From an uncultured Pedobacter sp. (lineage in GTDB: Bacteria; Bacteroidota; Bacteroidia; Sphingobacteriales; Sphingobacteriaceae): DNA of 64,000 nucleotides. The position numbers and the translations under genes were made by a program. A model generated the notes under the pieces. That model was not told the DNA's origin, did no database searches, and saw only the letters and a list, made by a program, of their open reading frames with translations. This document shows, in pieces, positions 22,499 through 25,224 of this stretch (position 1 is its first letter; each line of letters starts with the position of its first letter). Where the stretch lies: contig NZ_CAJYOJ010000013.1 of NCBI RefSeq assembly GCF_913776295.1, positions 1 to 64,000 on the forward strand, in the 5' to 3' direction.

Positions 22499-23239
22499 TT
22501 AAGCATAAATTGAGCCAAAAATTTCCTGATTTTTAAAAGGATAGTTTCCCAAAAACTCATATAATCTTCCAGATTGCACGGCGTCTGTTAATGTACTTAA
22601 ATGTTTATTGTGATGAAGGTCAGTTCCTGCCAGATCATACATTTTTTCCTTTAGCAAAACCTCTGCCAGTTGCTTAACGTCTTTCCCATAATAACCCATG
22701 ATAGAGAGCAGATTTAATTGGAGCAAACAGCCTTTTTCCTTAAATCTTTTTAATTTACTTTTATCCTTAAAGTAAAAGGTATACCGTTCGGGGTGGGCTA
22801 ATATGGGTTTATAACCTTTAATTTCTACATCAAAAATGGTTTGACTAATCCCCGGAGTTTCATTCAAATAAGACATTTCGATAAGAAGGTGTTTTGAATC
22901 TAAGGGACATAATTGTTCATTCAAATTAAAATCCTGATCAACCATATACTCTGCACCAGCGCTTAGTTTCAAAGAAACATTAGCTTTATCCATCTCTTGT
23001 TGTAGTGAATCTTTTGCACTAAAGATTATTTCTTTTGTATTTGGATACAACTCTTGGTAGATGTGAGGTGTAGCGATTAGCTGATCAAACCCCAGTTCCT
23101 GTAAAGATTTAACAAAATGCAAAGATGTAGATAAATCTGGGGAACCGTCATCTATGCCGGGTAGGATATGAGAATGAATATCAACACCTAACCAGGAAAT
23201 ATCAGTAATTTTATTTTTTTTACTAAAAAAGTTAAACAT
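22499..23239 (-). CDS. PHP-family protein-tyrosine phosphatase, CpsB/YwqE-like
   Basis: Expected to dephosphorylate the Wzc-like kinase. The 246-residue PHP domain has metal ligands in GVDIHSHILPGIDDGS, ATPHIYQELYPNT, LIEMSY, ILAHPERYTFYF and LAGTDLHH, as in manganese-dependent CpsB/YwqE enzymes. It is the first gene of the long exopolysaccharide operon. A 124-bp gap precedes the Wza gene. Confidence 0.9.
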   Translation of the reverse strand: MFNFFSKKNKITDISWLGVDIHSHILPGIDDGSPDLSTSLHFVKSLQELGFDQLIATPHIYQELYPNTKEIIFSAKDSLQQEMDKANVSLKLSAGAEYMVDQDFNLNEQLCPLDSKHLLIEMSYLNETPGISQTIFDVEIKGYKPILAHPERYTFYFKDKSKLKRFKEKGCLLQLNLLSIMGYYGKDVKQLAEVLLKEKMYDLAGTDLHHNKHLSTLTDAVQSGRLYEFLGNYPFKNQEIFGSIYA

Positions 23240-23447: not shown

Positions 23448-23455
23448 CAAAGGTA
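23448..23455 (-). promoter_or_regulatory. Candidate -7 box of the exopolysaccharide operon
   Basis: Minus-strand TACCTTTG is a perfect match to TAnnTTTG. Transcription would begin near 23444, giving a leader of roughly 205 nt before the phosphatase ATG. No TTTG is seen at the ideal -33 distance, so an activator may be needed. Confidence 0.45.
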
Positions 23456-23613
23456 AGACTTATAATAATGATTTAATCTGTAATCGCCAAAGTTTCTCAG
23501 TTATTTTAATTCTCCAGTACAGTCCTACCAATGAACCTCACACCATCCGAACCCTTTGTTACCTTATTCACTAATTTTTATTCGCTGTTTGTTTACTGTT
23601 TCTTTACCTTTTA

Positions 23614-23712
23614 GGTAATAAAAAGGTAAAGAATGGGTAAGCCAGGGGTAACCATGGGGTTAACATGGTGCCTAGAAAGGGTAAACAATTGGTAAAGGAT
23701 AGGTAAATAAAT
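23614..23712. repeat. GGTAA array with exact 11-bp period (nine positions)
   Basis: GGTAA starts at 23614, 23625, 23636, 23647, 23680, 23691 and 23702. GGTTA stands at 23658, and 23669 is the only position without the word. Every interval is a multiple of 11 bp. The six bases between words vary. An ACCATG-7-CATGGT inverted repeat (23651-23669) lies in the middle. On the minus strand, the operon's sense, the words read TTACC. It starts about 160 bp upstream of the candidate -7 box and just past the stop of the dehydrogenase gene. Confidence 0.85.
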
Positions 23713-23730: not shown

Positions 23731-25014
23731 TTATAACCTTGCGTCTGTCAGATCTCTGTTGATAAAAGATTTAGTATCAAAAATTATAGTACCTTGTTCC
23801 CTGAATCTTTGGTAATCAATTTCTAGAAATTGCTGATGAGCCACTGCTAAAATAACCACTTCATAATGTTTGAAATTGTTATTTTCCAGCATCTGGATAT
23901 GATATTCTGCTTCTACTTCAGCTGCATTGGCCCAGGGATCGTACACATCTACCTGCATACTGAAAGATTTAAGTTCTTTATAGATATCAATTACCCTCGT
24001 ATTCCGGGTATCCGGGCAATTTTCTTTAAAAGCGAAGCCCAGAATGAGTGCTCTCGCGCCATTAATCACCTTATCTTTTGCCACCAACATCTTAATCACC
24101 TTATTGGCAACAAACATGCCCATATTATCATTCACTCTTCTGCCAGACAGAATTACTTCAGGTTTGTAGCCCAAAGCTTCTGATTTATGGGCCAAATAGT
24201 AGGGATCAACTCCAATGCAATGTCCACCAACCAGGCCAGGTTTGTAATTGAGAAAATTCCATTTGGTGGCTGCAGCGGCTAATACATCTGCCGTATCAAT
24301 TTCCATACGGTCGAAAATTAAAGCCAGTTCGTTGACGAAGGAAATATTGACATCCCGTTGTGCATTTTCTATCGCTTTGGAGGCCTCAGCCACTTTAATG
24401 CTAGGTGCCAGATGCGTACCAGCAGTAATAATGGAAGCGTAAAGTTGATCGATCTCGATCGCAATCGTAGGGTTAGAGCCTGAGGTGACCTTTTTTATTT
24501 TGGTCAGGGTATTGATTTTATCTCCCGGATTGATCCGCTCTGGCGAATAACCACAGAAGAAATCAATATTATATTTTAGACCCGAAATTTTCGCTAATAC
24601 AGGCACACAATCTTCTTCGGTGCAGCCCGGATAAACAGTCGATTCGTAAATAACGATATCATCGGCTTTTAGTACGCTACCCAACATCTTGCTAGCCGCG
24701 AGTAGAGGTGCCAGATCTGGCCGCTTAAGGTGATCGATAGGTGTGGGGACGGTAACAATATAGATCGTACACATGGCCAGATCAGCCAGGTTAGCACTCA
24801 ACGTTAATCCACTATGCTTATCCGTCGAAGAACAGACCAATTTAAGGTCTTCTAAATTCGCTTCGTGGGTGCGGTCTTCTAATTGTTTTAGCTCTTCGAC
24901 ACGATTATCGTTCGTATCGAAACCAATAACCTTATACTTTTTTGCAAATTCGATAGCCAGCGGGAGCCCAACATAACCTAAACCTATAATCGCAATTTGC
25001 TTGTTTGTATTCAT
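23731..25014 (-). CDS. UDP-N-acetylhexosamine 6-dehydrogenase (WbpA/TviB-like)
   Basis: Nucleotide-sugar dehydrogenase of 427 residues. The natural start is the ATG at 25014 (MNTNKQIAIIGLGYVGLPLAIEFAKKYKVIGFD); the track's extra 37 residues are repeat-derived. Motifs include VTVPTPID, YESTVYPGCTEE, FCGYSPERINPGDK and the catalytic cysteine in GLVGGHCIGVDPYYLAHKSEALGY, a pattern of the TviB/WbpA branch rather than Ugd. It would make a UDP-HexNAc uronic acid. It is monocistronic, between the rml operon and the main operon. Substrate (GlcNAc or GalNAc) is not resolved. Confidence 0.88.
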   Translation of the reverse strand: MNTNKQIAIIGLGYVGLPLAIEFAKKYKVIGFDTNDNRVEELKQLEDRTHEANLEDLKLVCSSTDKHSGLTLSANLADLAMCTIYIVTVPTPIDHLKRPDLAPLLAASKMLGSVLKADDIVIYESTVYPGCTEEDCVPVLAKISGLKYNIDFFCGYSPERINPGDKINTLTKIKKVTSGSNPTIAIEIDQLYASIITAGTHLAPSIKVAEASKAIENAQRDVNISFVNELALIFDRMEIDTADVLAAAATKWNFLNYKPGLVGGHCIGVDPYYLAHKSEALGYKPEVILSGRRVNDNMGMFVANKVIKMLVAKDKVINGARALILGFAFKENCPDTRNTRVIDIYKELKSFSMQVDVYDPWANAAEVEAEYHIQMLENNNFKHYEVVILAVAHQQFLEIDYQRFREQGTIIFDTKSFINRDLTDARL

Positions 25015-25224
25015 TTTTACTTCGGTGATTGGGCAAAGATAAGATAAATCAGTAAAGCTTAATTCTTTTAACCACAGCGGACGCAAAGAGAATGCGCGAA
25101 GGACACAGCGTTGGATGGAGCGCAATGCTTAAATGAACTTACATTTCTTGCATGGTAAAAATGGCATATATGCATTTTAAACATCCATCGCTGCGCTAGC
25201 ATTGACAGACTCCTATACGAAAAC

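Follow-up and report, generated by a model that had tools for sequence, protein, structure and literature searches.

The 64-kb stretch of Pedobacter DNA analysed here (the window) contains an array in which the five-letter word GGTAA recurs at 11-bp steps. Comparison of homologous copies dispersed in this and related genomes shows that the word and its phase are conserved, while the spacers are free to vary. In the explanation that we favour, and to which we give about an even chance, the copies belong to a dispersed intergenic Pedobacter element. It would consist of an inverted GGTAA pair and 8–10 direct words in 11-bp steps, and would be a putative docking platform for a protein, not the dedicated switch of one operon.

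Structure of the array in the window

Between positions 23614 and 23712, eight of nine successive 11-bp slots are filled, seven with GGTAA and one with GGTTA, exactly as a preliminary description of this DNA had reported. The parts of the array are as follows.

23593–23613, minus strand: left arm and centre, with inverted TTACT at 23593, inverted TTACC at 23604–23608 and the near-invariant centre TTTTA
23614–23668, plus strand: first block of five in-phase words, GGTAA at 23614, 23625, 23636 and 23647, and GGTTA at 23658
23651–23669, no strand assigned: ACCATG...CATGGT dyad, arms at 23651–23656 and 23664–23669; perfect 6-bp dyad in 12 of 50 copies
23667–23679, plus strand: break slot, with GGT displaced by −2 (23667–23669), then TGCCTAGAAAG; the phase is back at 23680
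23680–23712, plus strand: second block of three in-phase words, GGTAA at 23680, 23691 and 23702

The only slot of the nine without a word begins at 23669 and reads TGCCT; this break recurs in other copies. The phasing runs on leftward on the opposite strand (TTACC at 23604, TTACT at 23593), and the segments 23593–23612 and 23621–23640 form a 20-bp inverted repeat that is 85% complementary. The dyad pointed out in the preliminary description does exist in the window array, but its count above shows that it is no feature of the family.

The regularity far exceeds a random expectation. Simulated 64-kb sequences (60 in all, first-order Markov model) never had more than three words in phase. Within the window, more than three in-phase words were found solely at periods of 11 (eight words) and 22 (five words). 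The whole genome has 11 instances of three GGTAA-N6 words in succession, every one within one of three arrays (on the window contig C13, on C34 and on C45), and the reversed control pattern of three words gave no match there. In agreement with the preliminary description, the array is not a simple tandem duplication: successive units are not near-identical, since their spacers differ from unit to unit. The TTACC strand is open solely because TTACC avoids stop codons. A coding reading of that strand was rejected, as whole 11-bp slots are gained and lost among copies, changes that would throw the reading frame off.

Dispersed copies in Pedobacter and beyond

A pattern of four GGTWA words matched 27 of 200 genomes, nearly all from the window's own genus; among the 27, two or three (e.g. 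G022 and G106) hold ordinary tandem repeats, and G026 and G033 hold a palindromic variant. The reversed control gave next to no matches in the same 200 genomes. Arrays are present in about two dozen of the 121 Pedobacter genomes sampled, with up to 13 dispersed copies per genome. Named records (P. ginsenosidimutans, P. terrae, P. suwonensis, P. psychrodurus and P. zeae) identify the genus as Pedobacter. When the centre plus the first word was used as the query, 20 of 401 genomes of the order matched, again all Pedobacter, with zero control matches. A literature search of open papers found no report of the GGTAA array repeat or of DUF6266, a gene family that recurs beside the arrays (see below).

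Comparison of over 50 distinct copies reveals a common architecture. An inverted-word centre (TTACCTTTTAGGTAA) is followed by five or six direct words, then by a slot in which GGT is displaced, and finally by some three further words. The gap-free alignment of copies from unrelated loci also covers about 90 bp on the upstream side of the centre. The copies examined are intergenic, lie in both orientations and have unrelated neighbours, including rpiA, a START-domain-like gene near a tRNA, glycosidases, SusD and UGDH (names outside the domain-scanned genes are readings of ORFs). One copy occupies a convergent 3'–3' gap. At rpiA, the array is found approximately 230 bp upstream in five species and is absent in sixteen others. 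Several of the array-less rpiA gaps hold another dispersed repeat, and the presence or absence of the array falls in a repeat-filled slot that lacks precise junctions.

Degenerate arrays were also seen in Parapedobacter, Longitalea and Niastella. Their word steps are mostly multiples of 11, an inverted TTACC often adjoins the first GGTAA, and the centre is often similar. In a collection of 85,000 genomes, pattern matches outside Sphingobacteriales and Chitinophagales are mostly near-perfect tandem repeats, unlike the window array.

A dispersed repeat of this kind could be a mobile hairpin similar to REPINs or MITEs, in which a transposase or recombinase acting in trans reads the words, and intact copies are recopied or converted. 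REPINs are hairpin repeats that are long maintained together with RAYT (PMC8049555), and REP elements and REPINs share with the array that they are dispersed, extragenic, hairpin-capable and vertically persistent (PMC8049555, PMC3116915). The hairpin-forming centre, the lineage-specific expansion in G059, the near-perfect palindromic variants in G026 and G033, and the greater similarity of copies within a genome than between genomes all agree with such mobility. However, a REP or REPIN is a short palindrome with a RAYT, whereas the Pedobacter array is directional and phased, and neither a transposase nor a RAYT was recognised in the flanks of the copies examined. Its copy number of 3–13 is low for REPINs. 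Copies also persist at orthologous sites across species despite heavily diverged flanks, and neither a precise empty site nor a target duplication came to light, the presence/absence at rpiA being without precise junctions. We regard the mobile hairpin as an unlikely alternative to the docking platform.

Other repeats occur in some of the intergenic regions compared. Upstream of rpiA (L295–L315), many species have two copies of a leader of about 120 bp (GAAATGGGGATTCC...GAATCCCCATC), and the dispersed repeats that separate the two differ. A tRNA gene (L042:10216–10289) lies near the C34 array; the gap between tRNA and START gene is short in distant relatives and repeat-expanded in the array-bearing clade. 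At the START-domain locus of G074 and G027 (L142 and L151), the intergenic gap is full of degenerate ACCAATGA and AGTCC words, another short-period repeat family. In G059 (L075–L083), approximately 100–300 bp to the left of the arrays, the same intergenic mosaics contain a highly conserved hairpin-like repeat of about 80 bp (TTTAACCACAGAT...ATCTGTGGTTAAA) and a short-word array of TGAGCTAAAA in steps of about 10 bp. The variant arrays of G026 (L052:1400–1560) and G033 (L061:1400–1600) are long near-perfect TTACC/GGTAA palindromes with very stable predicted hairpins.

Words are conserved and spacers drift

The preliminary description had suggested that relatives be aligned to see whether the period and GGTAA are kept while the spacers vary, and this was found. 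Across five groups of orthologous loci, whose pairs are not independent of one another, words differ by 1.9% and spacers by 22.4%, with word identity biased upward because most arrays were found by their words. The G004 and G095 orthologs at UGDH and one ortholog at the START locus were found by gene position, which limits this bias but does not remove it. In the same five groups, the left flank near the array differs by 23.5% and the farther flanks by 31–36%. The array centre differs by 9% among orthologs, against the 23.5% of the left flank. At the window's own locus, compared in four species, the values are 2.6% for words and 29% for spacers. Between the window array and its G004 ortholog, changes are seen at none of the 40 word sites and at 7 of the 42 spacer sites (Fisher p = 0.012). 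Within slots, spacer changes fall almost independently of one another, with whole-slot changes mildly over-represented, and words remain nearly intact where a slot has one or two spacer changes. We interpret the contrast between words and spacers as constraint on the phased words.

Copies that share a genome resemble one another more closely than expected (15% vs 23%; p = 0.017 for old loci only), and ectopic gene conversion between copies therefore also shapes the arrays. This similarity, the limited set of 11-mers and the gain and loss of whole slots would fit a functionless degenerate minisatellite made uniform by slippage and conversion. Such an origin is very improbable, as the words are almost invariant while the spacers diverge, mostly through mutually independent changes.

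We also considered a structured RNA (a leader, a 3' end or a small RNA) with a functional hairpin. Both strands fold about 5 standard deviations better than shuffled sequences (z about −5), so the hairpin may have some role. The pairing of a left arm is slightly better with the right arm of the same copy than with those of other copies, a weak effect (p = 0.008). Against this, both-sided changes were seen at 0 of the 13 pairs of the consensus fold, words distant from the stem are conserved too, and the orientation of the array to genes goes either way. An Rfam search of the loci and the window gave nothing except a tRNA. We give the RNA reading very little credence.

Gene neighbourhood and the exopolysaccharide operon

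The window array sits inside a same-strand gene run, between the following two genes.

23731–25125, minus strand: UDP-glucose/GDP-mannose dehydrogenase (UGDH; Pfam PF03721, PF00984 and PF03720); the array is just 3' of it in four species
22499–23239, minus strand: CpsB/CapC (Pfam PF19567), on the far side of the array; gmd takes its place in two array-bearing species

The array lies 24 bp past the 3' end of UGDH (stop at 23731) and 375 bp from the start of cpsB/capC (23239). It is kept 3' of UGDH in the window's own genome (G000), G004, G052 and G095. The gene that follows is a cpsB homolog in G004, as in the window, and gmd in G052 and G095. The UGDH loci were located with an approximate query, and positions were then verified using the window's own C-terminal sequence. 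In the 16 other loci compared, no orthologous array was found after UGDH; in G044, a short phased TTACC run is present after UGDH without the full orthologous array.

The preliminary description had suggested that the array controls the exopolysaccharide operon downstream, as a dedicated site for an OmpR/PhoB- or SARP-type regulator. The one-turn direct repeats, their position 375 bp upstream of cpsB and the conservation of word and phase are in keeping with that proposal. However, the genome has two further arrays and the genus many, and copies are dispersed beside unrelated genes in either orientation, one of them in the convergent gap. It stays with UGDH where gmd replaces cpsB, and the sole Bacteroidota-type −7 candidate, at 23455, lies about 160 bp beyond it. 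Control of the exopolysaccharide operon by the array is thus not supported by the comparison, and we consider such a dedicated site highly improbable. The other part of the earlier reading, that of a protein-binding array, is plausible and has comparative support.

A putative docking platform and its known counterparts

The array looks like a multi-site docking strip for a DNA-binding protein because the spaced words are kept while the intervening letters drift. The subunits of such a protein would bind in a head-to-tail arrangement, with each 5-bp word as the half-site of a single subunit. At one subunit per helical turn, many could assemble along the same DNA face into a cooperative block or filament. 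The array may then act as a general platform, either for local DNA architecture or as a boundary or modulator for whichever gene adjoins. Candidate partners are an OmpR/PhoB-type regulator, or a winged HTH protein of the BldC/Xis type such as the HTH_17 protein encoded next to some arrays.

Nothing in the analysis speaks for SARP binding. SARP sites consist of heptameric direct repeats next to a −10 element and are accompanied by a SARP gene; the Pedobacter array has a 5-bp word and a free 6-bp spacer. Plasmid iterons and parC-type repeats are tandem 11-bp direct repeats that are cooperatively bound; they share this repeat with the Pedobacter arrays but occur at a single locus by replication or partition genes, whereas the arrays are dispersed on the chromosome.

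The nearest documented arrangement, by analogy, is that of ArcA sites, for which three to five direct repeats in a row, with their centres 11 bp apart, have been documented (PMC3798270). ArcA and OmpR/PhoB sites resemble the Pedobacter array in having several 11-bp direct repeats in a row, some 22-bp steps and degenerate spacers (PMC3798270). Most of the known sites comprise two to five repeats and lie at regulated promoters, whereas the array has 8–10 words and recurs as an element next to unrelated genes. The OmpR/PhoB-type reading of the preliminary description is therefore a fair analogy as far as the same-face, one-turn (11-bp) half-sites go, conserved among orthologs with variable spacers, but it does not extend to a location at target promoters: the arrays lie in either orientation, 3' of UGDH and in a convergent gap. 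BldC forms head-to-tail oligomers on direct repeats (PMC5859096). BldC, Xis and RdfS sites are similar to the array in their direct repeats of variable number, with a subunit per repeat and a filament on the DNA (PMC5859096, PMC11963761), and an HTH_17 gene does lie by some arrays. They differ in that BldC repeats are about 9 bp long (AATTXXXX(C)), in contrast to GGTAA at an exact 11-bp phase, and no cognate small winged HTH was found in G000.

The phased array is best read as an addition to the interspersed repeats of bacteria, as a putative protein-binding element. A dispersed repeat built of phased half-sites, its words kept and its spacers free, would give a handle on a new head-to-tail DNA-binding protein in Bacteroidota, and would show that interspersed repeats can persist as platforms for proteins instead of as hairpins. 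The case also carries a caution: a phased array next to an operon should not be taken for that operon's switch until the rest of the genome has been checked.

The HTH_17 and DUF6266 cassette

Some array copies directly follow a 92-residue HTH_17 gene and precede a DUF6266 gene. Decayed remnants of this cassette are present in G059, G020 and G011. DUF6266 is a recurrent neighbour: in Niastella an array is found 281 bp ahead of a DUF6266-like gene, and in G052 and G071 the distance to such a gene is about 300 bp, again with the array upstream. DUF6266 as a universal partner was rejected, with an array upstream at just 3 of the 29 DUF6266 loci tested.

A special case of the docking platform is that the array is the binding site of the HTH_17 protein (BldC/Xis-like) encoded in the HTH_17–array–DUF6266 cassette, with stand-alone arrays as secondary targets or as scars that lost cassettes left behind. 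In many cassettes the array comes directly after the HTH stop codon, and in G097 a GGTTAA-type array is found both next to the HTH gene and at other loci. HTH_17 is predicted to fold as a winged HTH. Among its best structural matches are BldC–DNA, Xis and RdfS, which oligomerise head to tail; these matches are weak (best E 0.04). A cassette-type HTH_17 homolog is absent from G000, as the gene is from G052 and G117, despite intact arrays in all three. HTH_17 is thus unlikely as the present partner in the window's own genome. Moreover, relatives in which no array accompanies the HTH gene have an identical recognition helix. Taken together, we think this special case improbable.

Within the docking platform, recent spread with the cassette and exchange between copies may account for the copy number. 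A more specific version, which we offer tentatively, is that the arrays are vertically kept Pedobacter docking strips, with 8–10 phased half-sites and an inverted starter, on which a protein would polymerise along one face. They would then form a genus-level system of DNA architecture or boundaries that has also spread in the HTH_17/DUF6266 cassette.

In G203 (L281:4084–6770 and L282:6204–8889), the cassette is multi-copy, with HTH_17, the array and DUF6266 followed by a 137-residue membrane-like protein, a 187-residue protein and a 161-residue lipoprotein-like protein. These last three proteins have no Pfam match. The gene order resembles that of a lysis module.
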